A program made the translations under genes and the position numbers. Source: an uncultured Gemmatimonadota bacterium (lineage in GTDB: Bacteria; Gemmatimonadota; Gemmatimonadetes; Gemmatimonadales; Gemmatimonadaceae). From it: 64,000 bases of DNA. The notes below the pieces were generated by a model. The model saw only the letters and a program-made list of their open reading frames with translations. It was not told where the DNA came from and searched no databases. Location of the stretch: assembly GCA_902826615.1 (NCBI GenBank), contig CADEFN010000011.1, forward strand, positions 1 through 64,000, in the 5' to 3' direction. How positions within the stretch are numbered: position 1 is the first letter of the stretch; every line of letters starts with the position of its first letter. This document shows positions 34,466-64,000 of this stretch, piece by piece.

Positions 34466-35665
34466 ATGCCTGAGCTTCGCTACTACGTCACCCCACTGCT
34501 CGTCGGCAGGCTCCACGGGAACGGCCCTCCGCACCGTACCCACCCGTTCTGGCGCTCGCGCCTCAACCCGGATGGCGCGCCCGCGGCGCGAGTGGGAATC
34601 ATGCCCTTCGGGGCATCGAGCGTGGGCCTCCTCGCCGTCATCGCCGAGGTGCCCGAGTTGGAGGCGTTCGGCGCGCAGGCGGTGGAGGTGGGAAGCGGGC
34701 GGATCGGGGTGACCGGGCGCTCTCGCATCCGCGCGGTGCTGGGGGACGACCTGCTCCCACCGGGACTCTCGATCGCGGACGGCGGGACCGACGCACTGCG
34801 CTCGCTGGGCAAGGTCGCGCAACTGGCGCAGCGGGCACACGGGCAGTTCCAGCGCGAGCTTGCTGTCGCCGACCGGACGCGCTTCGCGGATCTCGGTGGG
34901 CGGTGGGCAGCGCTCCGGGACGAGCCGGACGCGCGTGTGCGCCTCGACGCTGCGCTCGCTCTCTGGGGTGACCGGGACCTCCTGATCGGCGGGGTGCATC
35001 TCGGGATCGGGCCGCGCATCCGTGGTGGCGCGCTGCCGTTTACCGATGCCTTCACCAACACGAACGGGACGGACCTGTCCGACCACAACGTCCTGTGGGT
35101 GCCTACCGATGGCGTCGACTGGACGATCCAGTCCAATCAGGCGCAGGTCCCCGGCACCGACACGGTTCGCCTCATGTACTGGGACGAGACGTGGGACGAC
35201 GACCAGTACGTCGGCCTCGATGCCTCGCTGGACGGCAACTACTCGCAGGGTCCTGCCGTGCGCTTGCAGGCGTCGGGTATCAACGGGCAGACGTTGCAGG
35301 TGGAGTTCTCCTCGGGCGTCTACCTGTCCGAGTACGTGTCCGGCACGGGCACGGACCTCGACTCGTTCGTGGTGTTCCCCGGGACACCCTACGCGCTGGA
35401 GTTGCGCGTCGAGGGGGCAAACTACGAGGGGCTGGTGGGCTCGCCGCTCGTTTCGGAGCTTGCCGCCACGGACTCGACCTACACGTCCGGCAAGGGTGGG
35501 ATCTCGGGCTACTGGGACGGCAACGGATCGGTGCTGGTCCGCATCGACAACGCCTACGGCGGGAACATCGCCGGGGCCGTGCGCGCGCTCACCGCCTTCC
35601 GCTGGCGCAATGACGACGGCGACGAGGACGCGGCCACGTGGCTCCGCGCTGAGAACACCAACTGA
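34466..35665 (+). CDS. Virion-associated protein with C-terminal lectin-like domain
   Basis: 399 residues. TACTCT ends six bases before the ATG and no Shine-Dalgarno is seen, so the mRNA may be leaderless. The N-terminal ~190 residues are an unrecognised alpha/beta domain (VGIMPFGASSVGLLAVIAEV). The C-terminal part from FTDAFTNTNGTDLSDHN to RIDNAYGG is a concanavalin-like beta sandwich, as in phage fibre or appendage proteins. Ends overlapping the next ATG. Confidence 0.7.
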   Translation: MPELRYYVTPLLVGRLHGNGPPHRTHPFWRSRLNPDGAPAARVGIMPFGASSVGLLAVIAEVPELEAFGAQAVEVGSGRIGVTGRSRIRAVLGDDLLPPGLSIADGGTDALRSLGKVAQLAQRAHGQFQRELAVADRTRFADLGGRWAALRDEPDARVRLDAALALWGDRDLLIGGVHLGIGPRIRGGALPFTDAFTNTNGTDLSDHNVLWVPTDGVDWTIQSNQAQVPGTDTVRLMYWDETWDDDQYVGLDASLDGNYSQGPAVRLQASGINGQTLQVEFSSGVYLSEYVSGTGTDLDSFVVFPGTPYALELRVEGANYEGLVGSPLVSELAATDSTYTSGKGGISGYWDGNGSVLVRIDNAYGGNIAGAVRALTAFRWRNDDGDEDAATWLRAENTN

Positions 35666-38250
35666 TGGTCGCCGTACCTGTCTCTACGCCGGTCCGTATC
35701 CGCTTCGGGACCGAGATCACCGGAGCGGACCCGCCGTCTGAGGCGTTCGCCTGCCAGTGGCGCCCCGCCTCCGGGGTGTGGGCGCTCCTCGGGAAGCGCA
35801 TCCTCCCGACCGTCCTGAGTGTCACGCCCACCTCGGACAACACGGACGGCACCAGCGTCGCCGTGAACATGCCCGCCACGGTGAACGCGGGCGACCTGCT
35901 GATCATGCTCGTCTCCAAGGACGGCACGGGCGCGATCTCCGACGTGACGGACTGGACGGCCCTCTGGGCCTCGTCGTCCTCCGGGGCCAGCAACTTCCGC
36001 GCCTTCGCGAAGAGCGCCGTCGGCAACGAGGACGGTACGACCGTCTCCGTCTCCTTCGGGGCTGCCTCCGAGACGGCTGCCGCGCAGGTGATCCGCATTC
36101 AGGCGGGCACGTGGACGGGGACCATCGGGGACATTCAGGTCGGCACGACCGCGACGGGCACGTCCAACAGCCCCAACCCGCCCTCCGTCACCCCGGCGTC
36201 CACGATGGTCGCGTTGGCGATCGCCTGCTACGGAGCGGACGACGACGACGATGCCTCCGCCTACCCGTACAGCGACGGCACCAACACGTACACGGAGTCG
36301 GGCACCGGCACCGCCTCCTGCTCGGTCGGTTCCTCCACGACCGGTGTGGACACGGGCTCGGCGGTCGACCCCGGCACGTTCACGATGGCAGCGTCGGAGG
36401 AGTGGGCGGCCCAGACGATCATCGTCCCCGGCGCACTCCCCTGCGTGGAGCTTGCCGCCTCCTCGCACATCACGGCGTCCGGCGAGAACACGACGGAGCA
36501 ACTGACCACCACGACGGGCACGTTCGTCGGCGGGCGGATCTCCGACGACGAGAACCCGGCGGATGCGGTCGACGTGGGCGAGGGCGTCCGCGAGGACGAG
36601 TTCTCCATCCGCCTGACCGGCAACGCGGTCGGTGGCGTGGTGTACGAACTGCGGCTGGTCCTCTCGGACGGGACCGCCTTCGACACCTACGACGTGACGC
36701 CGCTGATCACGCTCGCGCAGGTGGGGAGCGGCACACCCTCCCTGCCATCGCTCGTCGCCTCCGGGGCGGGTGACCACACCGGCGCCGGGGCGATCGAGGG
36801 CGACGGCGCCCCGACGCTGCCCTCGCTGCTGTCCGCCGGGACGGGCGTCATGCAGCCCTCCGGTACGGGCGCGCCCGTGGCGCCCTCGCTCGTGGCCGCG
36901 GGCGCCGCGCTGCACGCGCAGTCCGCGAGCGGCGCCGCCACGCTGCCGGGCCTCACCGCCTCGGGTAGCGGCGTCATGCAGCCAAGCGGTTCCGGCGACC
37001 CTGCCCTCGGCGCACTGTCCGCCGCGGGCACCGGGGTCAACACGTTCCCCGGGTCGGGCGCGGGCACGCTCGGCGCGCTCACCGCCTCCGGCTCCGCCGT
37101 GATGCACCCGGATGGCGCCGGGGCGCCGGTGCTCCCGGGCATCGGTTCCGCCGGGGTAGGCGTTCACGCGCAGGCCGCCGCCGGAGATCCGACGCTCCCG
37201 GGGCTCACCGCCTCGGGCGCCGCCGTCATGGTCCCCGAGGGAGACGGCGCCTCCACGCTGCCCTCGCTGCTCGCTGCGGGCACCGCCCTCATGCAGCCCA
37301 GTGGGGCGGGCGACCCGACGCTTCCCTCCCTCGTCTCCGGGGCGGAGGCGACAAGCGGCTTCTCGTCCACCGGAGCGGCCACACTCTCGGGCCTCACGGC
37401 GTCCGGCTCGGCCCTCATGCAGCCCAGTGGGGCGGGCGACCCGACGCTGCCGGGCCTCACGGCGTCCGGGTCGGCCCTCCAGACGCACGCGGCGTCGGGC
37501 GCCCCCACGCTGCCCCCGCTGCTCGCAGCAGGCGTCGGGCTCATGCCCGCGGACGGCGCCGGGGACGCCACACTCCCCGCACTCCTCGCCGCCGGGAGTG
37601 GCGCGCAGGTGTTCACGTCGAGCGGGGACGCCACGCTTCCCGCGCTCGTCGCGGACGGTGCGGGGGAGCAGGCCAGCGGGATCCCGGAGGGGGACGGCGA
37701 CGCCACCCTCCCCGGCATGACCGCCTCCGGGGCGGGCATCCAGCACCCCCGGGGCGCAGGCGCCGGGACGCTCCCGGGCATGTCCGGATCAGGCAGTGGG
37801 TTTACGCCCATCACGCAGCAGCCCGCCGCACCCGTGGCCGGTGGCTGGCAGGGACGCGGCTACACGCGCCAGCCGGAGCCCTACCCCCTGCCCGCCCCGC
37901 GGATCGCCTCCGGCGGCGGGCGCCTCGCTGCTCTCGGGGCGCGTGGGGCCGGAGCGAGCGTCAAGCCACGGCGCGACGGGGCGGTCGCCGCCTACCTGCC
38001 CGGCCTGACGGCCTCAGGGGCCGCTCACCTCGCTGCGGACGCCAACGGGGCGGTAGCACTGCCCGCGATGTTCTCGGGCGGTCAGGGTGGCGTCACGTGG
38101 CCCCAGCGCCCGCGCGCGGGGACGCCGATCCTGTCCGGGGGCGGCACGGCTCTCGTCACCGAGTGGCCCCCCGAGGTGCTGGAGCGCCGCCGGGTGATCG
38201 CGCAGGAGGACGAGGAACTGCTGGCCCTCATCATGAGCGGGGCGATCTAG
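35665..38250 (+). CDS. Large repeat-rich tail-fibre-like protein
   Basis: 861 residues. The N-terminal ~250 residues hold a beta-rich domain (VLSVTPTSDNTDGTSVAVNMP, GDLLIMLVSKDG). Residues ~352-712 consist of about 17 tandem repeats of ~21 residues, core AGDPTLPGLTASGSALMQPSG, probably a beta-structured fibre shaft. Two degenerate copies sit near the C-terminus (AYLPGLTASGAAHLAADA). Ends with an acidic helix. It is between portal and MuF genes, so it is likely an appendage. Confidence 0.78.
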   Translation: MVAVPVSTPVRIRFGTEITGADPPSEAFACQWRPASGVWALLGKRILPTVLSVTPTSDNTDGTSVAVNMPATVNAGDLLIMLVSKDGTGAISDVTDWTALWASSSSGASNFRAFAKSAVGNEDGTTVSVSFGAASETAAAQVIRIQAGTWTGTIGDIQVGTTATGTSNSPNPPSVTPASTMVALAIACYGADDDDDASAYPYSDGTNTYTESGTGTASCSVGSSTTGVDTGSAVDPGTFTMAASEEWAAQTIIVPGALPCVELAASSHITASGENTTEQLTTTTGTFVGGRISDDENPADAVDVGEGVREDEFSIRLTGNAVGGVVYELRLVLSDGTAFDTYDVTPLITLAQVGSGTPSLPSLVASGAGDHTGAGAIEGDGAPTLPSLLSAGTGVMQPSGTGAPVAPSLVAAGAALHAQSASGAATLPGLTASGSGVMQPSGSGDPALGALSAAGTGVNTFPGSGAGTLGALTASGSAVMHPDGAGAPVLPGIGSAGVGVHAQAAAGDPTLPGLTASGAAVMVPEGDGASTLPSLLAAGTALMQPSGAGDPTLPSLVSGAEATSGFSSTGAATLSGLTASGSALMQPSGAGDPTLPGLTASGSALQTHAASGAPTLPPLLAAGVGLMPADGAGDATLPALLAAGSGAQVFTSSGDATLPALVADGAGEQASGIPEGDGDATLPGMTASGAGIQHPRGAGAGTLPGMSGSGSGFTPITQQPAAPVAGGWQGRGYTRQPEPYPLPAPRIASGGGRLAALGARGAGASVKPRRDGAVAAYLPGLTASGAAHLAADANGAVALPAMFSGGQGGVTWPQRPRAGTPILSGGGTALVTEWPPEVLERRRVIAQEDEELLALIMSGAI
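36720..37800 (+). repeat. Protein-coding tandem repeats, about 17 units of ~63 bp
   Basis: The frame encodes consecutive units of the form (A/S)G(D/A)(P/A)TLP(G/S)L(T/L)A(S/A)G(S/T)(A/G)(L/V)MQPSG. Some units are nearly identical at DNA level (around 37290-37460), pointing to recent recombination or slippage. Confidence 0.85.
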
Positions 38251-45030: not shown

Positions 45031-45090
45031 CACGCTGAAACTGCTGATCGGTGTACCCTCATGCCCGGTAGGGGCATAAGGGGGCCGCCG

Positions 45091-46695: not shown

Positions 46696-48213
46696 ATGGT
46701 CACTGCTCCTCTCGCCACCGCGCAGCAGGGCGCCGACGACTCCATGGATCGGTTCCTCGACCGCATGTCACAGCGGCTGGAGGAGCGACTGGGAGTCAAG
46801 TCGCTTGCCCGCGGCTACAAGCACGACGCGTCGGGCACGCCGACGAGCACCGGCTACATCCACGGCCCCGGCGGCCTCCTCTCCTACCCGGGGGTCGACC
46901 CCGACGTGTTCCACACGGTGGTGGGGGCGAAGGGCATCCTCGGGCAGCTTCCCGTGCGGCCCGCGCGCGACACCAACCCGCTCTTCTCGGTGATCACCGG
47001 CGTCGGCGACGACTCCGGCGCCGAAAAGACCGAGGTATGTGACCCGGCGCCGACCGCGGGCATCCTCTCGGCCTGCATGCTCTCCTCGGTGTTCGCGCGC
47101 TACGAGCGCGCCACCCCGGAACTGGAGATCAACCGGCTGGGCCAGCGCACCGACCGCTCGGACCCGATGGACCTTCGGCTCGTCGGCACGCCGCTCGCGG
47201 ACAGCGCCGCCTTCCTCTCCGGTCCCGCCGCGCAGGGGACGCCGGGCAACCTCCTCCAGAACGAGGTGGCCCAGCGAATGTGGGAGCTTGGTGTCTCCCT
47301 CCACCGCCTGCTCTCCCGCCAGTTGTGGACGGGCAACCCCGCGAACAATAACGGCGACGCCTACCGGGAACTCACCTCGTTCCCCATCCTCGTCAACACG
47401 GGGCACGCGGACGTGCTCACCAACACGTCCTGCCCGTCCATCGACAGCGATGTCAAGGACTTCGACTACGCCGACGTGGCGACGGCGGGCTCCGATCTGG
47501 TCAACGCCCTCACGTACATCTTCCGCACGCGTCGCTCGCTCGCCGAGCGCACCGGCGTCACCCCGGTCCGCTGGGTGCTGGTCATGCGCGAGGAACTGTT
47601 CTACGAGGTGAGTGCGGTGTGGCCCTGCGCCTACCTCACCTACCGGTGCTCGTTCGGCGACAACGAGGCGGCCCGCCTCCTCGTCTCCGGCGACGAGCAG
47701 ACCAAGCTCCGCATCGCGATGCGCGAGGGCCGCTACCTCATGATCGACGACCAGCAGGTCGAGGTCGTGTTCGATGACGGCATCCCGATGCAGACGAGCA
47801 CGTCGGGTGGCACGGGCTCCGGGAACGTGCCCAACGGGGCGTTCGCCTCGGACATCTACCTGATCCCGATGTCCATCCTCGGTGGCCGCGCGGTCACCTA
47901 TCTGGAGCACTTCGACTACTCCAACCCGGACATCCGCTCGGCGATCGCCGGGCTGGAGCCCGGCGCCTACACGGTCGATGGTCCGTGGATCACGACCACG
48001 CGCCGGTCCATCTGGTGCTTCAACTGGCAGACCAAGATCGAGCCGCGGCTGATCCTGCGGACGCCATGGCTTGCCGGGCGACTCCAGAACGTGGTCGCCA
48101 TGCCGCTCCAGTACACCCGGTCGCCGTTCCCCGACGACCCGTACTTCGTGGCTGGCGGTGGTGTCACGACCCGCTCCGGCCCGTCGTACTTCACCCCGCT
48201 CTGGGGCGCGTAG
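46696..48213 (+). CDS. Major capsid protein (HK97-fold type)
   Basis: 505 residues, ATG with AAGGA eight bases upstream. It follows the protease and precedes a strong terminator. Features include QLPVRPARDTNPLFSVITGVGDDSG, a long helix region (LLQNEVAQRMWELGVSLHRLLSRQLW), WVLVMREELFYEVSAVWPC and VVFDDGIPMQT...SDIYLIPMSILGG, in the order expected for E-loop, spine helix and P-domain. A GGACGA element just upstream is followed by an out-of-frame GTG. Confidence 0.8.
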   Translation: MVTAPLATAQQGADDSMDRFLDRMSQRLEERLGVKSLARGYKHDASGTPTSTGYIHGPGGLLSYPGVDPDVFHTVVGAKGILGQLPVRPARDTNPLFSVITGVGDDSGAEKTEVCDPAPTAGILSACMLSSVFARYERATPELEINRLGQRTDRSDPMDLRLVGTPLADSAAFLSGPAAQGTPGNLLQNEVAQRMWELGVSLHRLLSRQLWTGNPANNNGDAYRELTSFPILVNTGHADVLTNTSCPSIDSDVKDFDYADVATAGSDLVNALTYIFRTRRSLAERTGVTPVRWVLVMREELFYEVSAVWPCAYLTYRCSFGDNEAARLLVSGDEQTKLRIAMREGRYLMIDDQQVEVVFDDGIPMQTSTSGGTGSGNVPNGAFASDIYLIPMSILGGRAVTYLEHFDYSNPDIRSAIAGLEPGAYTVDGPWITTTRRSIWCFNWQTKIEPRLILRTPWLAGRLQNVVAMPLQYTRSPFPDDPYFVAGGGVTTRSGPSYFTPLWGA

Positions 48214-50341: not shown

Positions 50342-51334
50342 ATGCGTAACGAACTGCACGGCAACGTCCTCATCACGGGCGGGGCGGGCTTCATCGGGCG
50401 CGCGCTCTTGCGCCGCGCCCAGCAGGAGGAATGGCAGGCCGACTTCACGGTGCTCTCCCGCGACGACGCCAAGCATGCCGCCCTCCAGCGCCGGTTCCCT
50501 GAGGTGCGGTGCGTGCTGGGGGACGTGGCGGGGCTCGACTTCGACGCGATGACGCGCCTCTTCACCGGGTTCGATGTCGTCATCCACGCCGCCGCCTCCA
50601 AGTACGTGGACCGCGCCGAGACGGCGCCCGCCGACACAGTGCGGACCAACATCGACGGCTCCGCGCGCGTCCTCAACGCGGCACTGTCCGCCCGGGTGGA
50701 GCGGCTGGTCGCGCTCTCCACCGACAAGGCGTGCGCCCCCACCTCCACCTACGGGCTCACGAAGGCCGTCATGGAGCGCCTGTACCAAGGCGCGCCCGCT
50801 GGCATCACGGGCGTCACGGTGGTGCGCTACGGGAACGTGGTGGGCTCCACGGGGAGCGTGCTCCCGATGTTTATGCAGTTCGCCGCGCAGGGCATGCCGA
50901 TCATGCTCACCGACCCGTTGATGACGCGCTTCTGGATGAGCGCCGACGAGGCGATCGACGCCATCCTCTTCGCCGTGCTGGACGCCTCCCACGGCGAACT
51001 GGTCGTGCCGCGCATGAAGGCGCTGGACATGGCGAACGTCGTGCGCATGGCGCTCGGGTACGACGACATGGGGGCGCTGCCCGATCAGGACCTGCCGCTT
51101 CCCGAGCGGCGCGTCGTGGTGCGCGGTCCTCGTCCCGGGGAGAAGCGTCACGAGGCGCTGGTCCACGAGTACGAAGCGCTCCGCACCGTGCACCGCGACG
51201 CCTACATGGTGCTCGCCCCTCCCGGCTCCGCCCCGTCGTCCGAGCCCTACACGGTGGTGAGCAACGACCCGCCGGGCGGCTGGATGGGGCTGGCCGAGAT
51301 GCGCCTGATCGTCGAGGACGCTGCGACCATCTGA
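50342..51334 (+). CDS. NAD-dependent sugar-nucleotide dehydratase/epimerase (CapD/PseB type)
   Basis: 330 residues, ATG after GGAAGGCACG. Rossmann motif TGGAGFIG (12-19), a long extended-SDR fold, STDKACAPTSTYGLTK with the catalytic Y137-x3-K141, and RPGEKRHE near the end. This matches UDP-GlcNAc 4,6-dehydratase-like enzymes (CapD, PseB, FnlA) that start synthesis of rare sugars. It opens the sugar cassette; exact product unknown. Confidence 0.85.
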   Translation: MRNELHGNVLITGGAGFIGRALLRRAQQEEWQADFTVLSRDDAKHAALQRRFPEVRCVLGDVAGLDFDAMTRLFTGFDVVIHAAASKYVDRAETAPADTVRTNIDGSARVLNAALSARVERLVALSTDKACAPTSTYGLTKAVMERLYQGAPAGITGVTVVRYGNVVGSTGSVLPMFMQFAAQGMPIMLTDPLMTRFWMSADEAIDAILFAVLDASHGELVVPRMKALDMANVVRMALGYDDMGALPDQDLPLPERRVVVRGPRPGEKRHEALVHEYEALRTVHRDAYMVLAPPGSAPSSEPYTVVSNDPPGGWMGLAEMRLIVEDAATI

Positions 51335-52044
51335 TGGACTACCCACCGGTCGCGATCATGCTCTTCACCTACCGGCGCTTCTCCACCGCGGTGCGGACGC
51401 TCGGAGCGCTCCGCGAGAACCTGCGCTACTCGGGACCGCTCCACGTCCATATCGCCGACGACGGCTCCCCGCCCCTGCTGGATGGCACCCCGCACGGGGA
51501 AGCCCTCATGCTGGAGGCGGCCAAGTGGGCCGCGAGCGTGTCCCGCACGGACAGTGAGCAGCACGGCTACGGCGCCTCCTACAACCGGGCCACGCAGGTC
51601 ACGCACGAGATCGCGGAGATCCTGCTGCCGCTGGAGGACGACTGGGAGCTACAGCGCCCTCTCCACCTCGACCCGCTCGTCGAGACGCTGCTGGGCAAGT
51701 ACGAGGTCGCCTGTATCCGCATGGGCTACGTGGGGTACACGCAGGAGCTACGGGGCCGCTTCATCCCCACCCCGGCGGGGCAGATGCTGCTCTTCGACCC
51801 CCTCAGCCCGGAGCCGCACGTGTTCGCCGGGCACGCCCGTCTGGAGACGCGGCAGTTCGAGCGGTCCGTCGGCGCGTGGCCGGAGATGGTGCCCGCGGGT
51901 GCCACCGAGTTCGAGGTGTCGCACCGGGAGGCCGCGCGCCGCGGGGTGGCGTGGCCGCTCGACGTGATCAAGCCCTCCGAGTGGTTATTCGCCCACATCG
52001 GAGCGGAGGCGTACAACACGCACCAGCCGGGCAGTGAGTCGTAA
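51334..52044 (+). CDS. Glycosyltransferase (GT-A, family 2-like)
   Basis: 236 residues, ATG overlapping the previous stop. VAIMLFTYRRFSTAVRTLGAL, LHVHIADDGSPPLL and EILLPLEDDWEL (acidic DDW) are hallmarks of GT2-like enzymes. The last third (RGVAWPLDVIKPSEW) is acceptor-specific. Likely transfers a sugar made by the preceding enzyme. Confidence 0.78.
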   Translation: MDYPPVAIMLFTYRRFSTAVRTLGALRENLRYSGPLHVHIADDGSPPLLDGTPHGEALMLEAAKWAASVSRTDSEQHGYGASYNRATQVTHEIAEILLPLEDDWELQRPLHLDPLVETLLGKYEVACIRMGYVGYTQELRGRFIPTPAGQMLLFDPLSPEPHVFAGHARLETRQFERSVGAWPEMVPAGATEFEVSHREAARRGVAWPLDVIKPSEWLFAHIGAEAYNTHQPGSES

Positions 52045-52225
52045 GGGCCGCCCCCCGGCGGGGGCGATGCGGCACATGATCGTGCCACACGAGACGCCCG
52101 ACGGTGTGCGGTTTGCTCCCAAGTGCGACCCCGCCATGTCGCTCAACCCAGTGGATGTGCAGGAGAACAGCAAGCGCGCGCAGGCGTGCTGGAAGTGCGG
52201 GAAGCGTGATGAACGAGTGGGATGA
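52034..52225 (+). CDS. Small protein with CWKC pair
   Basis: 63 residues, GTG overlapping the glycosyltransferase by 11 bases. FAPKCDPAM and QACWKCGKRDE suggest a zinc site. Also overlaps the next gene. Unrecognised. Confidence 0.55.
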   Translation: MSRKGRPPAGAMRHMIVPHETPDGVRFAPKCDPAMSLNPVDVQENSKRAQACWKCGKRDERVG

Positions 52226-52832
52226 GCGATCGTTCGACTGGCCGGGCCTGATCGGCAGGCGCCCGCTCGTCGTCGAGGTCGGTGGGTTCGAGGGCCGCTG
52301 GGTGCTGGAGATGGCGGAGCGCTACCCGGGCGAGTACCACATCTTCGAGCCGCAGGACTGGGCGAACGGGCGGATCGAGCGCCGCATGGGCGCGGCGCTC
52401 CGCTCCGGCTCCGACATGCACGTCCACCCCTACGCGCTCGGCGTGGCCCACGGGCAGTTCCAGATGGCCGGGTGGGGGACGGACGCTAACTCGTTCCTGA
52501 AGAACGAGGCGTTCTTCGAGCGCTGGCCGGAGGAGCAGCGCAACGCGCGCCACATGGCGATGATGCGCCGCGTGGAGGACGACTGGCCGCAGGTGTTCGG
52601 GGACCGGCAGGTTGACGTGCTCTGCATGAACATCGAGGGCTACGAGTTCGTGCTGCTCCCCGAGATGGCGCGGTGCGGCATCCTCCCCCGCATCGACCAC
52701 CTCATGGTTCAGTTCCACGACGGGTACGACGTGCCGATCGACGAGGCCGGGGTGCGCGCCATCCTTGCCGAGACGCACGACATCCTCTGGGACTACGGGT
52801 CCACGCTGGCATGCTGGGAGAGGCGCGCCTGA
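52209..52832 (+). CDS. FkbM-like methyltransferase, copy 1
   Basis: 207 residues from ATG. PLVVEVGGFEGRWVLEMAERYPG (SAM motif I region), YHIFEPQDWA, VHPYALGVAHGQFQMAGWGT and DVLCMNIEGYEFVLLPEM follow the FkbM-family order. FkbM enzymes O-methylate sugars or small molecules, fitting the neighbouring glycosyltransferases. Paralogue of the next gene. Confidence 0.82.
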   Translation: MNEWDERSFDWPGLIGRRPLVVEVGGFEGRWVLEMAERYPGEYHIFEPQDWANGRIERRMGAALRSGSDMHVHPYALGVAHGQFQMAGWGTDANSFLKNEAFFERWPEEQRNARHMAMMRRVEDDWPQVFGDRQVDVLCMNIEGYEFVLLPEMARCGILPRIDHLMVQFHDGYDVPIDEAGVRAILAETHDILWDYGSTLACWERRA

Positions 52833-53533
52833 TGCTCGACGTGACGGCGCTTGCCGATCCCCACTGCCCGGAGGACCTGCGCGTGCTCGCCGCGGAGTGG
52901 CCGCTGGGCTTCCTCTTCAACCTGCCCCCCGGGGCGAACATCGTGGTCGCCGGGGCGCACGAGGGGAAGGTGATGGACCTGCTGGCCCGCCTCTACCCCG
53001 ACTACTGGATACTCGCGGGGTTTGAGCCGCAGGTGGACGCGCTGGTGCGGGCTTCGGCGCGGCTTCAAGTCCTCAGGGCGGTGGGAGTGGGCCAGACCGA
53101 CCGCGGTATCCGCCTGTTCCCCTACGCGCTGGGGGTCCACGACGGCGAGTTCACGATGCACGACTGGGGGACCCGCGAAGCCTCATTCGTTACGCACCGG
53201 AGCGGCGAGGCGCGCTCCAGCGGGGCTGTCGCGACGGGACGCATGCGCGCCTTTGAACACGCCATGGTGGATGCTGGGATGAACGCCCCCGGGATCCGCT
53301 GGATCGATCTGCTTCTGCTCAACATCGAGGGGTTCGAGTTCACCCTGCTCGACCATCTGCTGAAGATGGACTGGTTCTCCTCTGGCGTGATCCGGCGGCT
53401 CGCCATGCAGGTTCACTTCGGGATGGAGGGGGAGGAGTTGTACGCCCCCTCCATCGAGCGGCTGGAGCGCACGCACAAGCGGGTGTTCGATGAGCTTCCC
53501 CAGTGGGGCTACTGGCAATGGAGCGGCGCATGA
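52832..53533 (+). CDS. FkbM-like methyltransferase, copy 2
   Basis: 233 residues, ATG overlapping the previous stop. ANIVVAGAHEGKVMDLLARLYP, AGFEPQ, LFPYALGVHDGEFTMHDWGT and IDLLLLNIEGFEFTLLDHLL parallel copy 1 element by element. The glycine motif is degenerate (AGAHEG), so activity on SAM is less certain. Confidence 0.78.
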   Translation: MLDVTALADPHCPEDLRVLAAEWPLGFLFNLPPGANIVVAGAHEGKVMDLLARLYPDYWILAGFEPQVDALVRASARLQVLRAVGVGQTDRGIRLFPYALGVHDGEFTMHDWGTREASFVTHRSGEARSSGAVATGRMRAFEHAMVDAGMNAPGIRWIDLLLLNIEGFEFTLLDHLLKMDWFSSGVIRRLAMQVHFGMEGEELYAPSIERLERTHKRVFDELPQWGYWQWSGA

Positions 53534-56500
53534 AGGTCCACATCTACCCCCCGCTGCCGGACGGCCCGGACCTCGGCGACGGCGGCATCCGGCAGGTGAT
53601 TCGCGCGCAGTACGCGTGGCTGCCCGCCTACGGCTGGGAGATCGTGAAGGACCCGGCGGAGGCGGACGTGATCGCCTCGCACATCGCCACGCCCCCCGCG
53701 TACCTGAACCTCTATGGCTCCACCAAGCCGTTCGTCGTCCACAATCACGGCGTCTACTGGACGCCCGACTACGACTGGCAGGGCTGGGCGTACGACGCCA
53801 ACGCGCAGGTGCTCGAAAACCTGCGCACCGCTGACCTCACCACCGCCGTCTCGGAATGGACCGCGCAGGCCCTCCGGCGCCACTCGAACCGTGACATCCG
53901 CGTCGTCCACCACGGCGTCGATCTGGAGGAGTGGACCCCGCCGGAGTCCCCGGGCAGCTACGTGCTCTGGAACAAGACGCGGGTGGACCCGATCTGCGAC
54001 CCCTCCCCCGTGGCGGCGCTCGCGCAACTGCTCCCCTTCCTCCCCGTCATGACCACGTTCCTCCCCGACGGGATCGCTCCGCCGCGGAACGTCACGGTGA
54101 CGGGACGCCTCCCCTTCGAGGAGGGGAAGGCGGTCGTGCGGCAGGCGGGCGTCTACCTCTGCACGACGCGCGAGACGTTCGGGATCGGCACGCTGGAAGC
54201 GCTCGCCTGTGGCGTGCCGGTCGTCGGCTACGCGTGGGGCGGGCAGCGCGAGATCGTGCGCCACGGGGTGGACGGGTGGCTGGTGCCCCCGGGTGACATC
54301 GCGGGGCTCGCCGAGGGGGTGCGCTGGGCGCTGGAGACGCCGGAGGCACGGATCCGCGCGCGCGAGCGCGCCGAGCAGTTCCCCGTCGCGGAGTCGATCG
54401 CCAAGTACGCCGAGATCTATCAGGAGGTGGTGGACCGCTTCGCGGAGCGCCGCGCTGCCCCGCGCACCTCGATCGTCGTCACCGCGTACAAGCTGGAGCG
54501 CTACCTAGAGGACACGCTGAACTCGGTGCTCGCGCAGGAGGACCGCGACTGGGAGTGCATCGTCGTCGACGACGCCTCCCCGGACGCCTGTGGCGAGATC
54601 GCCGAGCGCTATGCGGCGCGCGATGAGCGCTTCCGGGTGATCCACAACCGCCTCAATCAGTACCTCGCGGGCGCCCGCAATACGGGCATCGAGGCCGCCC
54701 GGGGCCGCTACATCCTCCCCCTCGACGGGGACGACATGCTCACCCCCAACGCTGTCTCCACGCTGGCGGGCATGCTCGATCGCTACCGGGGCATCCACAT
54801 CGCCTACGGGAACGTCCGGTTCGTCAACGAGGACGGCAAGACGCTCACCCGCTACGGGGGGCACGAGCCCGGCCACTCCGGGTGGCCCGTCGAGTTCCGG
54901 CTGGACTGGATGCTGGAGGGCGTCAACGGGAGCTACTTCAAGGGCCAGCACGGCGGGCAGCCCATGCCCTACTGCTCGATGTTCCGGCGGGAGGCGTGGG
55001 CGCTGACCGGCGGGTACCGCACGCGCGCGCGGTCCTCGGAGGACTGCGACATGTGGCTGCGCACCACCTCCTACGGGTTCCGCGCCGAGATGGTCACGCA
55101 GGCGGACACGCTGGTGTACCGCAACCGCGAGGGCTCCATGTCGCGCGATGTCGGCTGGGAAGAGCACCGCCCGTGGTACCCGTGGGTGCGGGACCATGCC
55201 GCGCTCCCCGCCGCCGCCTATCGGGGCCTCGTCAAGCCCGACCAGATCCCGCTCCCGGCGCTCGACCCCGAGATCGCCGTCGTCATCCCCGTCGGCCCGG
55301 AGCACGGGCGCTGGGTGGTCGATGCCGTCGACTCGGTGGACGCCCAGACGTTCCGGCTCTGGGAGTGCATCGTGGTGAACGACTCCGGCGCGCCCCTCCC
55401 CCGGCTCCCCCAGTGGGTGCGGGTGATCGAGCGGCCCTGCGAGCACTGCGCGGGCAAGGGGGAATGGGAGCGGCGGGACGAGTCCGGCGAGGTGACGCAC
55501 GGCGGCGCCTGCGCGGAGTGCGGCGGGTCCGGGCTGGGCCGCTTCGGCGGCACGGCGGCGGCGCGCAACGCAGGGATCCGGGCGGCGCTCGCCCCCCTCT
55601 TCCTCCCCCTCGACGCCGATGACTACCTCCAGCCGGACGCGCTCACCGTCATGCTCCACGCGCACCGCGCGGACCCGCGCGCGCCCATCGTGTACTCGGA
55701 CTTCTGGGACGAGAAGCAGCCCGGTGAGCGCGAGATCTACGAGACGGAGGACTACGACCCCCGCCACCTGATCAACCGGGGGATCCCGTGGATCGTGACC
55801 TCCCTGACGCCCGTGGCATACTGGCGCGAGGTGGGAGGATTCCCGGAGGACGTGCCGTGGGAGGACTGGGCATTCGCCCTGCTCTGCGCGTCCCGTGGCT
55901 ACTGCCACCGGCGCGTCGCGGCTCCCCTCGTCCTGTACCGCAAGTGGACGGGGCGGCGCCGGGAACAGAACCTCGCGGAGAAGCAGGAGAACGCGCTGCG
56001 CTTCCGCGACTGGCAGGTCCAGCACGTAGAGACGGTTGGAGGCGAACTGATGGCATGCGGTAGCTGCCCCGCGGGGCGATCGACCACGATGATGGTGGGG
56101 CCGATGGGCGGGCGCTCGATGGCCCCCGCGGTCACCCAGCCGGACGGGCTGGTGCTCGTCGAGTACATCGGCAACAAGGCGGGGGCGGTCGAGTACAAGT
56201 CGTCCGTCTCGGGCCAGAACCCCTACCGGTTCTCGGCCACGCAGCGCCGCAAGGGTGTGCGCCCAGAGGACGTGGAGTTCTTCGCGCTCAACCGCGAGTT
56301 CCGCGTCGTCCCCACGGAGGAGATCGGGATCCCCTCCACCGCCGTGCAGCGCGGGCTCTCCGACCCGATCGTCGCCTCCGGCCCGCCGCGCCCGGAGGCG
56401 GGACGCGCGCAGGGTGAGTCGGGCCTGCCCCGGCTGGCGCCGCCGCCCGCCCCGGAGCGCGAGGAGCGGGAGCCGGTCGGCGCCGCCGTCGCCGTGATGG

Positions 56501-56727
56501 AGCGCCCGGACCTCCCGGCCAACGACCTGACCCGCGCGGTCGCCGAGTTGGAGGGCGCGCCGCAGGAGAACCCGGAGATCCGCTCGCTTCGGCGGAACAA
56601 CACGCGCCCCCAGTTGGATGACATGGCGCGTGAACTGGGGCACCCTGACCCCTCCCAGTTCGCAAACGCGCACGATGTCGCGGCTTTCGTCGTCGCGATG
56701 CGTGCAAACGTCGCGGGCTCGCAGTAG
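53530..56727 (+). CDS. Triple glycosyltransferase fused to a virion-type C-terminal region
   Basis: 1065 residues, ATG overlapping the previous stop. Residues 1-310: GT4 (GT-B) with ETFGIGTLEALACGVPVVG (215-233). Residues ~313-575: GT2 with VVTAYKLERYLEDTL, VVDDASPD and LDGDDMLTP (398-405). Residues ~578-835: second GT2 (VVIPVGPEHGRW, LPLDADDYLQP) carrying an inserted zinc site CEHCAGKG...CAECGGSG (C637, C640, C661, C664). From M841 a different region begins: VLVEYIGNKAGAVEYKSS, Pro-rich linker, and an HeH/SAP-like end (RPQLDDMARELGHPDPSQF). Confidence 0.85.
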   Translation: MKVHIYPPLPDGPDLGDGGIRQVIRAQYAWLPAYGWEIVKDPAEADVIASHIATPPAYLNLYGSTKPFVVHNHGVYWTPDYDWQGWAYDANAQVLENLRTADLTTAVSEWTAQALRRHSNRDIRVVHHGVDLEEWTPPESPGSYVLWNKTRVDPICDPSPVAALAQLLPFLPVMTTFLPDGIAPPRNVTVTGRLPFEEGKAVVRQAGVYLCTTRETFGIGTLEALACGVPVVGYAWGGQREIVRHGVDGWLVPPGDIAGLAEGVRWALETPEARIRARERAEQFPVAESIAKYAEIYQEVVDRFAERRAAPRTSIVVTAYKLERYLEDTLNSVLAQEDRDWECIVVDDASPDACGEIAERYAARDERFRVIHNRLNQYLAGARNTGIEAARGRYILPLDGDDMLTPNAVSTLAGMLDRYRGIHIAYGNVRFVNEDGKTLTRYGGHEPGHSGWPVEFRLDWMLEGVNGSYFKGQHGGQPMPYCSMFRREAWALTGGYRTRARSSEDCDMWLRTTSYGFRAEMVTQADTLVYRNREGSMSRDVGWEEHRPWYPWVRDHAALPAAAYRGLVKPDQIPLPALDPEIAVVIPVGPEHGRWVVDAVDSVDAQTFRLWECIVVNDSGAPLPRLPQWVRVIERPCEHCAGKGEWERRDESGEVTHGGACAECGGSGLGRFGGTAAARNAGIRAALAPLFLPLDADDYLQPDALTVMLHAHRADPRAPIVYSDFWDEKQPGEREIYETEDYDPRHLINRGIPWIVTSLTPVAYWREVGGFPEDVPWEDWAFALLCASRGYCHRRVAAPLVLYRKWTGRRREQNLAEKQENALRFRDWQVQHVETVGGELMACGSCPAGRSTTMMVGPMGGRSMAPAVTQPDGLVLVEYIGNKAGAVEYKSSVSGQNPYRFSATQRRKGVRPEDVEFFALNREFRVVPTEEIGIPSTAVQRGLSDPIVASGPPRPEAGRAQGESGLPRLAPPPAPEREEREPVGAAVAVMERPDLPANDLTRAVAELEGAPQENPEIRSLRRNNTRPQLDDMARELGHPDPSQFANAHDVAAFVVAMRANVAGSQ
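56050..56727 (+). CDS. Possible internal start: virion-type protein fused to the glycosyltransferase frame
   Basis: In-frame ATG at 56050 has GGAGG at 56038-56042, a seven-base spacing, so a separate 225-residue product may be made. It starts ACGSCPAGR, contains YIGNKAGAVEYKSSVSGQNPYRFSATQRRKG and ends with a helix-extension-helix-like segment. That composition suits phage head-to-tail proteins more than enzymes. Confidence 0.5.
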   Translation: MACGSCPAGRSTTMMVGPMGGRSMAPAVTQPDGLVLVEYIGNKAGAVEYKSSVSGQNPYRFSATQRRKGVRPEDVEFFALNREFRVVPTEEIGIPSTAVQRGLSDPIVASGPPRPEAGRAQGESGLPRLAPPPAPEREEREPVGAAVAVMERPDLPANDLTRAVAELEGAPQENPEIRSLRRNNTRPQLDDMARELGHPDPSQFANAHDVAAFVVAMRANVAGSQ

Positions 56728-56794: not shown

Positions 56795-57094
56795 GTGACG
56801 CTTTCCGACATCATCCTGATCGGCCTCGGCGCGTGGCGACTGGCCTCCCTGCTCGTGCAGGAGGACGGCCCGTGGGACGTGTTCGTACGCGTCCGTGACT
56901 GGACGGGCATGCCCCTCGGGACCGGGTTCTTCGCCAAGCTGCTCGGCTGCATCTGGTGCACGTCCGTCTGGACGGGGACGGCACTCTACGGCGTCTGGCT
57001 GCTCGTCCCCGTGCTGTCCTACCTGCCCGCCATCTGGGCCGTCGCGCTGATCGTCGATCGCTGGATGCTGGGCTGGGGGACGCCCCCGGAATGA
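56795..57094 (+). CDS. DUF1360-like membrane protein
   Basis: 99 residues, GTG with GGGGGAG upstream. LIGLGAWRLASLLVQEDGPWDVFVRVRDW, LGCIWCTSVWTGTALYG and PAIWAVALIVDRW match small DUF1360-type membrane proteins with a conserved CxxC after the first domain. Widespread in phage structural regions; function unknown. Confidence 0.75.
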   Translation: MTLSDIILIGLGAWRLASLLVQEDGPWDVFVRVRDWTGMPLGTGFFAKLLGCIWCTSVWTGTALYGVWLLVPVLSYLPAIWAVALIVDRWMLGWGTPPE

Positions 57095-57318: not shown

Positions 57319-58548
57319 ATGAAGTCCGAAACCGTCACCAAGCTCTCCATCCCCCACTGGGCGCGACTGCTGGGCATCAACCCCCTGCACGTCATGGGCG
57401 TGCAGGTCGAGGAGATCCAGCAGGGCACGTGCGATGTCTCGTGGTTCCAGTACGGCTGGCAAAACGCCTCCGCCGTCTCCCGCGAGGAGCTTGCCGTGAA
57501 GATCCGGCAGGCGGAGGACGAGATCGAGCACTACCTGCGCGCGCGCCTGCTCCCCTCGTGGGAGGAGGACGAGGTAGCGATCGCCACTCCGCCCGCGCGG
57601 CCCGATACCGTCTGGCACTCCCCGTTCAACGCGCGCGGCTACTGGCAGTCCGTCGAGACGCAGTGGAAGCACCTGATCTCCGGGGGGCGGCGCGCCCAGA
57701 CGCTGATCGACGACGCCGCTGCCGTCGTCTACACGGACTCGATCCCCAGCACCGCCTACTTCACGCCGCCGTCCGTGCTCTACAAGGACACGGCCACCGT
57801 CACCGTCACAGTCGCCGCGGGCACGGCGGCGAACGAGATCGCCGTCTACTGCCCCGGGCGGGAGGGGGATGAGCGCTACCGGATCCGCCCCGTGTCCGTC
57901 TCGATCACGGGCACGACTGCGACCATCACGTTCCGGCGCGAGCTTGCGATCGACCCGGACATGCAGGAGGGGATCGGGACGGGCGCCAACTTCATGCGGC
58001 CCGTGGACGGCAGGAGCGCCGACCCGTTCCTCACGACCGTGGACGTGTACCGCGTCTACAACGACGGCGCCACGCAGGCCGCTCTCCTCTGGCTCCCCCC
58101 GAACGGGGGCGCGCCGGGGGCGCTCGCCGAGCAGGCCGCCGCACTCACCGTCTCGGATGCCCGCATGGGGTTCGTGCAGTACCGCCCGGGCACGTGGGAC
58201 GGGGACACGAGCGCCTTCGTGGCGACCTGCCGGTCGCTGGGCCGCCAGCCCGATGCCGTCCGCCTCTACTACCGCTCCGGGCTCCCCGCGGCGCCCAACG
58301 GCGAGATGAGCCACGAGTGGGCGCTGACGGTGGCGATCCTCGCCGCCGCCCGGCTGGACCGCCCCGTCTGCAACTGCGCCTCCGGGTTCGTCAACCGCTG
58401 GCAGCGCGACTACGCGGTGAGTGAGCCCAAGACGAACCGGCGGCTCGATGAGCGCCTGCTGGGCAACCCGATCGGCACCCTCGCGGGCGAGATCTACGCG
58501 TGGGAGCGGGTGCTGCGCGCGAGCGCGCGCGTGGCGGTTTCGGCGTAA
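57319..58548 (+). CDS. Head-tail connector-region protein
   Basis: 409 residues, ATG after GGGAGG. The N-terminal helical part (VSREELAVKIRQAEDEIEHYLRARLLPSWEED) resembles the gp6-type adaptor fold. A beta-rich middle (ATVTVTVAAGTAANEIAVYCPG, VSVSITGTTATITFRREL) and a C-terminal helical part with CNCASGFVNRWQRD follow. Position before tail genes supports a connector or tail-completion role; exact role inferred. Confidence 0.62.
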   Translation: MKSETVTKLSIPHWARLLGINPLHVMGVQVEEIQQGTCDVSWFQYGWQNASAVSREELAVKIRQAEDEIEHYLRARLLPSWEEDEVAIATPPARPDTVWHSPFNARGYWQSVETQWKHLISGGRRAQTLIDDAAAVVYTDSIPSTAYFTPPSVLYKDTATVTVTVAAGTAANEIAVYCPGREGDERYRIRPVSVSITGTTATITFRRELAIDPDMQEGIGTGANFMRPVDGRSADPFLTTVDVYRVYNDGATQAALLWLPPNGGAPGALAEQAAALTVSDARMGFVQYRPGTWDGDTSAFVATCRSLGRQPDAVRLYYRSGLPAAPNGEMSHEWALTVAILAAARLDRPVCNCASGFVNRWQRDYAVSEPKTNRRLDERLLGNPIGTLAGEIYAWERVLRASARVAVSA

Positions 58549-59153: not shown

Positions 59154-60665
59154 ATGGTCCAGTCGGCAGTCAAGCCGCTTACCGCTTCTCAGGCCCGCCT
59201 GTGGCTGACTGAGAACGGCGCGAGCCCGGCCAACGCGCCGGAGTACAAGGGCTTCGCCCGAGTCACCAACCCGACGGTATCTCGTGGCTCGACCACGCAG
59301 ATCCGCATCCCCGACCCCAACCGGTACGGGTCATTCCTCACCGTGGGCACCGTCCGCGGCGTCCCGGACCCCGGCTCGGTCAACATCGAGTCCCGCCGGG
59401 AACTGGGCCCCGTCTCCGAACTGCTGCGCATCTTCAACAAGCAATGCGCCGTGGACGTGCAGGTCCACTTCGGGGACTGTCAGGACCCGCAGAACTTCTC
59501 GGACGGCTGGGACACGGTACGTATCTTCGAGGACGTGGAGCCCCAGCAGTGGTCCGGCTCGGACCACGGCGCGTTCGACGAGGGCAACGACGGCGCCCTG
59601 ACCGAGACGCTGGGCGTGAACTTCGCGCGCGTCTACGACGTGAAGAAGCTGCGTGCCGCGGAGGTGGCGTCCTCGGACCTCACCGACGAGGCCGTCGACG
59701 TGATCATCGCCGATCAGGTGACGTGCGGTCAGTGTGGCCGCGTCTCTGACGGCTGCCAGATCGCCTTCATCCTCGTCGGGGACACGTCCGGTTCCCCCGG
59801 CCTGCCCCCGAAGGTCCTCTTCACGGAGGACGGCGGCTCCACGTGGAGTTCGTCGGTCATCACTACGCTCGGCCTTGCCGAGTCCCCCCTGCGCCTCGCG
59901 GCGGTGGGCACGGACCTCGTGGTCGTCTCGAACGACTCCGGCTCCCTCCACTACGCGAACATTAACGACATCCTCGACGGCACCGAGTCGTGGTCGGAGG
60001 TGGCGACCGGCTTCGACGGCTCCGGCGCCCCGAACGCGATCTCCAGCGTCGCGCGCGACCGCACGTGGATCGCCGGTGACGGTGGCCGCATCTACCTCAC
60101 CACCGACCCGGGCTCCGGTGTCACCGAGCAGGCAGACGGCTCCCAGACGGCCCAGAACCTGCTCGACATCCACGCGCTGGACCGCAACAACGTCGTCGCC
60201 GTGGGCGAGTCGAACGCGGTGCTCGTCACCGCCAACGGCGGCTCCACGTGGGCGGCGGTGACCGGCCCGGCCCCGGGTGTGAACATCCGCACCGTCTGGA
60301 TGCTCTCGGTCAACGACTGGATCGTCGGCCTCAACGACGGGACGCTCTACTACACCCGCAACGCCGGTACGACGTGGACGGCCAAGAGCTTCCCGGGCTC
60401 GGGCGCCGGGACCGTCCGGCACGTCCGCTTCGCCTCCAAGAACGTCGGCTACATGGCCCACGTGACGGCGGCTGCCGCGGGCCGCATCCTGCGCACCATC
60501 GATGGTGGCAACTCGTGGGTGGTCCTGCCGGAAGAGGCGGGGCAGACCATCCCGGCCAACGACGCGATCAACCGGGTGGCGCCCTGCCCGGACGACCCGA
60601 ACATCTGCTTCGGCGTCGGCCTCGCCGCTGACGCCTCCGACGGGTTCGCGGTCAAGTTCTCGTAG
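59154..60665 (+). CDS. Major tail protein with C-terminal beta-propeller-like domain
   Basis: 503 residues, ATG with GGAGG upstream. The first ~190 residues (YGSFLTVGTVRGVPDPGSVNIESRRELG, QVHFGDCQDPQNF, YDVKKLRAAEV) fit a tail-tube subunit before the chaperones. The rest has repeated GGSTW-type blades (FTEDGGSTWSS, VTANGGSTWAAV, YTRNAGTTWTAK, RTIDGGNSWVV) as in Ycf48/BNR propellers. The propeller could decorate the tail. A short out-of-frame reading frame at 59134 overlaps its start. Confidence 0.72.
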   Translation: MVQSAVKPLTASQARLWLTENGASPANAPEYKGFARVTNPTVSRGSTTQIRIPDPNRYGSFLTVGTVRGVPDPGSVNIESRRELGPVSELLRIFNKQCAVDVQVHFGDCQDPQNFSDGWDTVRIFEDVEPQQWSGSDHGAFDEGNDGALTETLGVNFARVYDVKKLRAAEVASSDLTDEAVDVIIADQVTCGQCGRVSDGCQIAFILVGDTSGSPGLPPKVLFTEDGGSTWSSSVITTLGLAESPLRLAAVGTDLVVVSNDSGSLHYANINDILDGTESWSEVATGFDGSGAPNAISSVARDRTWIAGDGGRIYLTTDPGSGVTEQADGSQTAQNLLDIHALDRNNVVAVGESNAVLVTANGGSTWAAVTGPAPGVNIRTVWMLSVNDWIVGLNDGTLYYTRNAGTTWTAKSFPGSGAGTVRHVRFASKNVGYMAHVTAAAAGRILRTIDGGNSWVVLPEEAGQTIPANDAINRVAPCPDDPNICFGVGLAADASDGFAVKFS

Positions 60666-61649: not shown

Positions 61650-64000
61650 ATGCCCTTCGAGGAAGTTGGCGTTCGCGCAGTCGTCGCGGGCGCCGAGCAG
61701 TACGTCGCGAACGCCCAGCAGGTCAACGCTGCGACCTCGGGCATGGTGGCGGGCGCCGTCCGCGCCCAGACTTCCACCGCCCAGATGGCCGGGGCGCTCA
61801 CGACCGCGGGCGCTGAGGTCACGCGCGCGACCGCCCGCATGGGCACCTCCCTCACCGCCGTCGGCGCCCAGATCCGCGAGGTGTCCGCGCAGGCCCTCCT
61901 CCTCGGCGCCGGGCTGGCCGCGCCGGGGACCGCCGCCGTCGCCTTCGCCATCTCGTTCGAGTCCGCGTTCGCTGGCGTGCGCAAGACGGTCGATGCCACG
62001 GAGGCGGAGTTCGCGCAGCTTCGCACCACCCTCCTCGACATGTCGCAGGAGCTACCCGTCTCGGCGGACGCCCTCTCGGGCGTCGCGGAGGCCGCGGGCC
62101 AGTTGGGGATCGCCTTCCAGAACATCCCGGGGTTTGTGCGCACCGTCACACAACTGGTGGAGACGACGAACCTCACGCTCGACGGGGCCGCGACGGGCCT
62201 CGCCCAGTTCGCCAACATCCTCCAGTTGCCGCAGGACCAGTTGGGGCGGGTGGGCGCCGCGCTCGTCGACCTCGGCAACAAGGGCGCCTCCACCGAGGTG
62301 CAGATTCTGGAGTTCGCGCTGCGCATCGCGGGCGCGGGCAAGGTCGTGGGGCTGTCCGCCGACCAGATCCTCGCCTTCGGCAACGGGCTGGCGTCCGTGG
62401 GCATCGAGGCGGAGGCCGGTGGCACCGCCATCTCCCGCACGTTCATCGAGCTTGCCAAGGCGGTGGACCTCGGCGGGGAGCAGTTGGAGCGCTTCGCGAC
62501 CGTCGCGGGCCAGTCGGCGTCCGACTTCGCCCAAGCGTTCCGGGCGGACGCGGCAGCCGCCACCGTCACGTTCATCGAGGGGCTGGGGCGGATCACGGAG
62601 GCGGGCGAGGGCACGTTCTCCGTGCTGGAGGAACTGTCCTTCAACGACGCCCGCCTCACCCGCTCCCTGCTCGCCGCGGCGGGTGCCGGGGACCTGCTGC
62701 GCCAGTCACTGGTCAACGGCGCGAACGCCTACGCGGAGAACACGGCGCTGACGACGGAGTATTCCCGGCGCCTCGACACCGCGAGTGTGCAGGCGCGACT
62801 CCTCATCAACGACATCCGGCGGCTCGCGATCGACACCGGCACGCTTCTCCTCCCCGCGTTCCGGCAGGGCGTGGACCTTGCGCGCGCCCTTGTCGACGCC
62901 TTCTCCGCCATCCCTGCGCCCGTCAGGGCCGTTGCCGCAGGGTTGCTGGTGCTGGGAGGCGCGGCAACCGTCGCAGTGGCCTCTACGGGCCTCCTCGTGG
63001 GCTCTCTGCTCACGATCGCCGGTGGGCTGGGTGCGGGGGGCGCGGGAGGCGCCGCCGGTGGAGGTGGGCTCGTCGCCGTGGGAGCGCAGGCCGGGCTCGC
63101 CGCGACGGCGCTCCGCACGTTTGCGATCGGCGGGGTGGCGACCGCGGTGGCGGGACTCCGCACCCTCGGGCTCGCGCTCTCTACCGCACTCGCCTCGATG
63201 ACGGCCTTCTCGGTCAACACGTCCGCCGCGGCTGCGTCGGCATTCCCTGCATTCGCCACGCAGGCCGGGGCCGCCGGGCGGGCGATCGGTGCCCTCGGAG
63301 CCGCTGCCGCGGCCTTCGCCGCCTCCAACCCCATCCTCGCGGCGCTCACGGCCATCACCGTCGGGGTGGGCGCGGTGGTGATCGCCTTCGACCGGCTCGC
63401 CAATCGGGGCTTCGAGCGCGACTTCGAGCCGGTCATCCTGAAGCTCCGGGAGCTTCAGGATGAGCTACGCCGCACACGCGACGAGGTAAACGAGACGGCG
63501 GCGGCGCTGGCGGGTGGCCTGCCCAGTGGGGAGGAGCAGCTACCGGGGCTGACGGGCGCCCAGAGCGACCGTGCGCGCTTCCTCCAGCAGCAGTTGGAAC
63601 TCCTCAACGGACGAGGGGCGGAGATCACCGACCCCAACCTCTCCCAGCAGCAGCAGCTTGCCCGGGGGGACGTGGCCGCAGCGCTCGGCATCGAGCGACG
63701 GGGTGAAGCGCTCCGGGCACTGCGAGACGCCGAGGCGGAACTGAACCGGGTGCGTGGCGACTCCCGCTCGACGAGCACGGAGATCGCGAACGCCGAACTG
63801 GCCGTCTCGCTCGCCCAGCAGACGGTGGAGCGGTCCACCACCCGGGTGACCGAGGCGGGGCTGAACTTCATCAACTCGCTATCCGCCGAGGACCGCAAGC
63901 TCATCGCCGTCGCTGGGTCCACGCGGGCGCTCGCGGAGGAGCAGCGCGCGCTCAACGTCCTGAACGCGCGGCGCGACAACGCGCCATCCCCGGAGACACG
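61650..64000 (+). CDS. Tape measure protein, TP901 type (3'-truncated by the window)
   Basis: At least 783 residues, ATG at 61650; the frame is open to the window end. FESAFAGVRKTVDATEAEFAQLRTTLLDMSQELPVS, AEAAGQLGIAF and FANILQLPQDQLGRVGAALVDLGNKGA match the TP901/PhageMin tail tape measure domain. A hydrophobic Gly/Ala-rich region follows (63000 area: VAVASTGLLVGSLLTIAGGLG), then helical coiled-coil sequence. It sets tail length and aids DNA ejection. Confidence 0.92.
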   Translation, partial: MPFEEVGVRAVVAGAEQYVANAQQVNAATSGMVAGAVRAQTSTAQMAGALTTAGAEVTRATARMGTSLTAVGAQIREVSAQALLLGAGLAAPGTAAVAFAISFESAFAGVRKTVDATEAEFAQLRTTLLDMSQELPVSADALSGVAEAAGQLGIAFQNIPGFVRTVTQLVETTNLTLDGAATGLAQFANILQLPQDQLGRVGAALVDLGNKGASTEVQILEFALRIAGAGKVVGLSADQILAFGNGLASVGIEAEAGGTAISRTFIELAKAVDLGGEQLERFATVAGQSASDFAQAFRADAAAATVTFIEGLGRITEAGEGTFSVLEELSFNDARLTRSLLAAAGAGDLLRQSLVNGANAYAENTALTTEYSRRLDTASVQARLLINDIRRLAIDTGTLLLPAFRQGVDLARALVDAFSAIPAPVRAVAAGLLVLGGAATVAVASTGLLVGSLLTIAGGLGAGGAGGAAGGGGLVAVGAQAGLAATALRTFAIGGVATAVAGLRTLGLALSTALASMTAFSVNTSAAAASAFPAFATQAGAAGRAIGALGAAAAAFAASNPILAALTAITVGVGAVVIAFDRLANRGFERDFEPVILKLRELQDELRRTRDEVNETAAALAGGLPSGEEQLPGLTGAQSDRARFLQQQLELLNGRGAEITDPNLSQQQQLARGDVAAALGIERRGEALRALRDAEAELNRVRGDSRSTSTEIANAELAVSLAQQTVERSTTRVTEAGLNFINSLSAEDRKLIAVAGSTRALAEEQRALNVLNARRDNAPSPET

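Follow-up and report, generated by a model that had tools for sequence, protein, structure and literature searches.

To our knowledge, only a few phages are known to glycosylate their virions, and the route by which the transferases reach the particle is not established. YqbF of the Bacillus skin element and gpFI of phage lambda, which enter the comparison below, are encoded next to capsid genes and belong to the capsid/neck region. In mycobacteriophages, phage glycosyltransferases are reported to decorate subunits of the capsid and tail tube with glycans (Freeman et al. 2023, Cell Host Microbe, as cited in PMC12619734), and the gpFI homologue of TP901-1 has been discussed as possibly attached to the capsid through a −1 frameshift (PMC4493119). 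The locus presented here resembles the mycobacteriophage systems, as these are outlined in PMC12619734, in its phage-encoded glycosyltransferases with intact motifs, and it is known from genes alone. Unlike the systems in that outline, it has a triple glycosyltransferase fused to a small protein with a putative start of its own, nucleotide-sugar genes within the structural block, and a glycosyltransferase that belongs to the core genes of an entire uncultured lineage. The frameshift of TP901-1 (PMC4493119) is a precedent for alternative translation of a gpFI-type domain. Virion glycosylation is thus already known, and it is the nested, tethered architecture that appears to be new; it was not found in the open-licence literature searched.

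The window, i.e. the whole stretch of 64,000 nucleotides that was analysed, covers the first 64 kb of a contig of 83,332 bases. Its sugar cassette consists of five open reading frames (ORFs) on the + strand, with outer limits at 50342 and 56727 exactly as in the preliminary description, which had read the genes as overlapped end to end. This reading holds: overlaps of 1–4 nt occur at three junctions (SDR/GT2, MT1/MT2 and MT2/GT3, as named below), and the sole gap (52045-52208) is bridged by a possible small gene of 63 codons with a CxxC motif (52034-52225, +), seen in the sequence only, which overlaps both GT2 and MT1. The first gene (50342-51334, +) encodes a sugar-nucleotide 4,6-dehydratase of the SDR type, like PseB, FlaA1 and FnlA. 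It matches PF02719 (Polysacc_synt_2) with E = 1.7e-62 and 211.7 bits (gathering cut-off 20.2), its closest solved structure is the Helicobacter pylori UDP-GlcNAc C6 dehydratase 2GN4 (E = 1.4e-45), and the alignment to 2GN4 reveals that the catalytic STDKA and YxxxK motifs are retained. The match to the PseB family TIGR03589 (E = 1.2e-59) reaches 201.8 bits, under the equivalog cut-off of 407.75, so that ‘PseB-like’ is the safe name; with this restriction the earlier assignment to a CapD/PseB-type dehydratase stands. In other words, the enzyme is homologous over its full length to the PseB/FlaA1/FnlA UDP-GlcNAc 4,6-dehydratases and has their catalytic motifs, but it scores at half of the PseB cut-off, and the window has no PseC or reductase partner, whereas relatives have them.

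The second gene (51334-52044, +; 236 amino acids) encodes a GT-A/GT2-like glycosyltransferase. As a single sequence it has no Pfam match; its family profile (A7) matches GT2 enzymes of the PDB, among them chondroitin synthase (E = 8e-9), in agreement with the original GT2 call, and homologues occur in the cassettes of most relatives. Two putative methyltransferases follow, MT1 (52209-52832, +) and MT2 (52832-53533, +), which were introduced as FkbM enzymes. MT2 matches TIGR01444 (E = 1.1e-6; 29.2 bits versus a cut-off of 37.7) and PF05050 (E = 0.009; 16.6 bits versus 22.7), while MT1 matches neither FkbM family; it is a paralogue of MT2 (31–32% identity) and has a viral homologue in locus L006 (E = 3e-26). 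Because neither reaches the curated cut-offs, they are assigned as ‘FkbM-like’ only, the weak match of MT2 and its paralogy with MT1 being what is retained of the first assignment. FEPQ and NxEGxE are conserved in the methyltransferase alignment (A8); matches of the methyltransferase profile to Kelch designs cover a short stretch and were judged spurious. The last gene (GT3; 53530-56727, +; 1065 amino acids) encodes a triple glycosyltransferase of architecture GT4-GT2-GT2, recognized by Pfam (PF00534, PF13439 and PF00535 in two stretches) as the preliminary description had it, followed by a C-terminal domain termed TAIL. By our reading, each of the three transferase domains has its typical catalytic motifs conserved across relatives (alignment A1). 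The five cassette proteins contain no transmembrane segment. In GC3 (0.91–0.94) the main cassette genes do not differ from the phage genes around them, so that the cassette is not a recent import.

The placement of the cassette between capsid and tail genes is borne out by its borders. Upstream lies the gene of the major capsid protein (46696-48213, +; 505 amino acids), whose AlphaFold model (pLDDT 79) has the HK97 capsid fold: it yields 300 PDB matches with E ≤ 1e-3, and the best 50 consist almost throughout of phage capsids with the HK97 fold, besides a few encapsulins that share this fold. The downstream border is a structural-region protein (57319-58548, +), encoded by a conserved neck-region gene and recognized by the conserved order of genes in relatives. 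Further on, the tail tape measure gene (61650-63998, +), which extends past the window, matches PHROG tape-measure families (best 1.8e-95). Between GT3 and the downstream border, a small DUF1360-like membrane protein (56795-57094, +) directly follows GT3; profile matches are found at the same position in about 50 loci, and a pooled scan that included this protein gave PF07098 with E = 3.1e-6. Another conserved protein (59154-60662), encoded between neck-region and tail genes, has BNR/Asp-box and YCF48-like repeats (PF14870) forming a propeller of sialidase type, and might bind or cut glycans.

The C-terminal domain of GT3 and an internal start site had been overlooked in the first reading. A nested in-frame ORF (56050-56727, +) encodes TAIL (225 amino acids), beginning with MACGSC, and is preceded by a Shine–Dalgarno (SD) sequence GGAGG (56038-56042, +) that lies 7 nt ahead of the internal ATG and forms an anti-SD duplex of −11.3 kcal/mol. 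In relatives, the TAIL consensus starts with MxCxxC, followed by VEYxG...GxxY.F...KYV..D...F; it opens in frame with ATG, GTG or TTG, with an SD ahead in nearly every case, and a first residue of Leu or Val is invariably encoded by TTG or GTG. Over 38 discovery loci, the mean anti-SD energy at the TAIL start is −9.3 kcal/mol, versus −2.7 at 1975 further in-frame start codons of these genes, and a threshold of −6.5 is passed by 97% of TAIL starts versus 7.5% of the others. When the same residues are recoded synonymously the mean is −6.3, and no set out of 1000 comes as low as the observed one (z = −8.4, a value that treats the loci as independent and, since they are related, overstates this independence). 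Outside the discovery set, 11 of 15 loci pass the threshold, the SD being weak in the remaining four; in L044 and L049 both start and SD are present. By these signatures TAIL is very probably translated alone as well as fused. In two sub-lineages the two parts are separate ORFs: they stand apart in L052, and an in-frame stop lies between them in L070/L071, so that tethering of the transferase to TAIL is not obligatory. In L043, what looked like a change of frame where GT3 ends turned out to be the gene that follows.

By sequence, TAIL gave nothing meaningful against the PDB and only a marginal match to DUF7196 in Pfam (2/26). Its structural model is confident over residues ∼31–90. Among PDB matches, VIA-align ranks YqbF first (Z 4.4, rmsd 2.6 over 51 residues), where unrelated GINS chains reach 4.0; against the C-terminal domain of lambda gpFI the Z of 3.0 is weak on the same scale. 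In BFVD the model matches many small phage proteins without assigned function. The modelled fold thus weakly resembles the head-region proteins YqbF and lambda gpFI, which is to be taken as a lead only; unlike these, TAIL has an N-terminal MxCxxC and a fusion to glycosyltransferases, with no match in sequence. In relatives, TAIL is encoded after the capsid gene and before further structural genes, in a stretch into which variable sugar genes are inserted. Variable C-terminal helical extensions are found on TAIL in L017, L018, L031, L033, L040, L042, L049 and L052, and those of L040, L049 and L052 have segments resembling helix-hairpin-helix motifs, which suggest contact with DNA.

The cassette is a trait of an uncultured tailed-phage lineage, being present on about 55 uncultured viral contigs. 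Scans with the GT3 and capsid alignments retrieved 43 and 41 viral loci, respectively, and a scan of cellular genomes found the GT-TAIL fusion on phage contigs only. The recurring order is portal, Mu-F, homologue of the gene at 45061, capsid, sugar genes, GT3, and then the homologues of the genes at 57319, 58500, 59154 and 60751, and it is kept at 29–56% protein identity; recurrence in dozens of divergent viral contigs places this arrangement far beyond chance. As loci selected through GT3 are biased, those selected through the capsid provide the fair test of conservation. In every capsid-selected locus that reaches the 57319 homologue, the glycosyltransferase core and TAIL are both present; among full capsid-bearing contigs the core is found in 17 of 18, and the exception stops about 2.2 kb beyond the capsid gene. 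One contig of the lineage (L096; JAUCQD010000187.1) is binned in a Methanothrix (archaeal) MAG, probably by misbinning.

What is fixed across the lineage is the position of the cassette and the triple glycosyltransferase, while the other sugar enzymes vary. The accessory repertoire of relatives includes DegT/PseC and RmlD-like enzymes, an HddA-like kinase with a GmhA-like isomerase, a rhamnosyl O-methyltransferase, a PIG-L deacetylase, a formyltransferase, a sulfotransferase, GT10 and many methyltransferases. Locus L011 combines PseB with PseC, and L007 an SDR with an RmlD-like protein. FkbM-like genes occur in a minority of relatives, so the methyltransferases stressed by the preliminary description are accessory rather than core. 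In the minimal form, seen in L096 and in L039/L068, GT3-TAIL directly follows the capsid gene, no other recognized sugar family lying between the two. Transmembrane segments are rare, 51 of 52 accessory ORFs tested having fewer than two, and no flippase, polymerase, ligase or polyprenyl transferase was found among 25 of the 53 Pfam families in accessory genes. In L009, HddA-like heptose kinase and GmhA-like isomerase genes (31-1643 of that locus) lie upstream of the capsid gene; thus, in some relatives sugar genes are present on both sides of the capsid.

Altogether, the cassette is probably a late-expressed set for virion glycosylation, with the triple glycosyltransferase tethered to the head through TAIL; expression, tethering, target and glycan structure are here what we infer. 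The cassette would be expressed together with the late genes, and ribosomes using the second in-frame start would make a short free TAIL beside the long GT-TAIL. Free TAIL would be an assembly protein associated with the head, comparable to YqbF and gpFI. In the fusion, the TAIL end would recruit the three transferase domains to the head or neck during assembly, and there they would attach a short oligosaccharide to proteins of the particle. For the copy in the window, the PseB/FnlA-like dehydratase would convert UDP-GlcNAc into a 4-keto-6-deoxy-HexNAc nucleotide, GT2 would add a residue and the FkbM-like enzymes would O-methylate the product. Quick exchange of the tailoring enzymes may alter the sugar coat of the particle, e.g. 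against binding by the host or the environment, or for adsorption. A wider version, which we hold more tentatively and consider a little doubtful, makes capsid-tethered glycosylation a core assembly function throughout the lineage: the nested starts would yield one head protein in two forms, free and bearing three transferases, sugars would be installed during assembly, and the hypervariable tailoring set would switch the coat. The earlier proposal that the genes synthesise, polymerise and O-methylate a glycan fares unevenly. Synthesis and methylation are consistent with the predicted gene content, of which the nucleotide-sugar dehydratase is the only nucleotide-sugar step encoded in the window; polymerisation is not supported, no Wzy-type polymerase being found. 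As to the two targets then named, virion or host surface, the first is the better supported, by the locked capsid–tail position and by the fusion to a domain resembling head-region proteins, and the second is weakened.

The acceptor might also be something other than a virion protein, DNA, lipid and host glycans being possible substrates. The cassette could modify the infected cell's O-antigen or capsule, for instance to block superinfection or to aid release, and its families suit such a role, since PseB/FnlA-type dehydratases, DegT aminotransferases, GT2 and GT4 transferases and RmlD-like reductases are typical of LPS and EPS genes; the small membrane protein after GT3 points the same way. 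The Gtr O-antigen conversion cassettes of temperate phages are a known system to compare, and GtrB-like PHROGs are weakly matched by the GT2 domains. However, Gtr cassettes differ in that here no membrane component is present, no lysogeny gene was found in the search for a tyrosine integrase on the contig, and the genes lie inside the morphogenesis block, at a fixed place and with a fusion to a head-region-like domain. The lack of membrane proteins, nearly complete also among the accessory ORFs of relatives, makes modification of the host surface less likely than that of the virion, and the accessory families, with their lack of export and polymerisation functions, argue in the same direction; we regard this explanation as unlikely. 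Less likely still is glycosylation of DNA, in which the transferases would glycosylate modified bases of the phage ahead of packaging and a gpFI-like TAIL would place these enzymes at the packaging machinery. Hypermodification of DNA by virus-encoded glycosyltransferases is known among other phages (Pyle et al. 2024, as cited in PMC12619734), and lambda gpFI, which TAIL weakly resembles, is a packaging chaperone (PMC4493119). Yet no thymidylate synthase or hydroxymethylase occurs among the 18 Pfam families in ORFs of the window and right flank, the aminotransferase, sulfotransferase and heptose genes of relatives suit protein or surface glycans better, and the genes have a late-gene position, all of which leave it very improbable.

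A further alternative concerns the internal start alone, which could be the relic of a once-separate TAIL gene fused to the glycosyltransferase by loss of a stop codon, the old start being unused. The separate TAIL ORFs of L052, L070 and L071 and the four out-of-sample loci with a weak SD fit this history. But an unused start would have decayed, whereas the SD is kept beyond coding needs across loci of 29–56% identity and the first codon is always a possible start, even at Leu or Val; conservation of both counts against a relic, which we consider quite unlikely. If virion glycosylation through GT-TAIL is correct, a structural-type domain made both free and fused to transferases offers a direct answer to how such enzymes reach the particle; the swapping of tailoring enzymes at a single constant position points to phages varying the sugar coat of the particle much as bacteria vary their O-antigens.

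The GT3-TAIL cassette is also a conserved marker for a tailed-phage lineage that has no cultured member in the collections searched. The contig of the window carries terminase, portal, Mu-F-like, capsid and tape-measure genes. By tblastn against 50,697 phage records, the capsid, MT2, TAIL and 57319 proteins are all without match, and the absence of the capsid from these records indicates a phage without cultured relative in them; its TerL is at best 24–27% identical to that of distant phages, and the capsid, 57319, 59154 and TAIL proteins have no match in PHROG searches with single sequences. The contig was binned with a 5.9-Mb proteobacterial MAG (CADEFQ010000013.1). Among 40 related bacterial genomes the capsid protein is present on this contig only, so that the assignment of a host follows from the binning alone. 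DUF5131, ParB_N, PAPS reductase, Dam and Fic domains were also found on the contig in the pooled Pfam scan of the window and right flank. An 861-amino-acid ORF (35665-38250) contains repeated segments that are 37–49% identical to a protein of the right-hand part of the contig (L004, 6460-6825).
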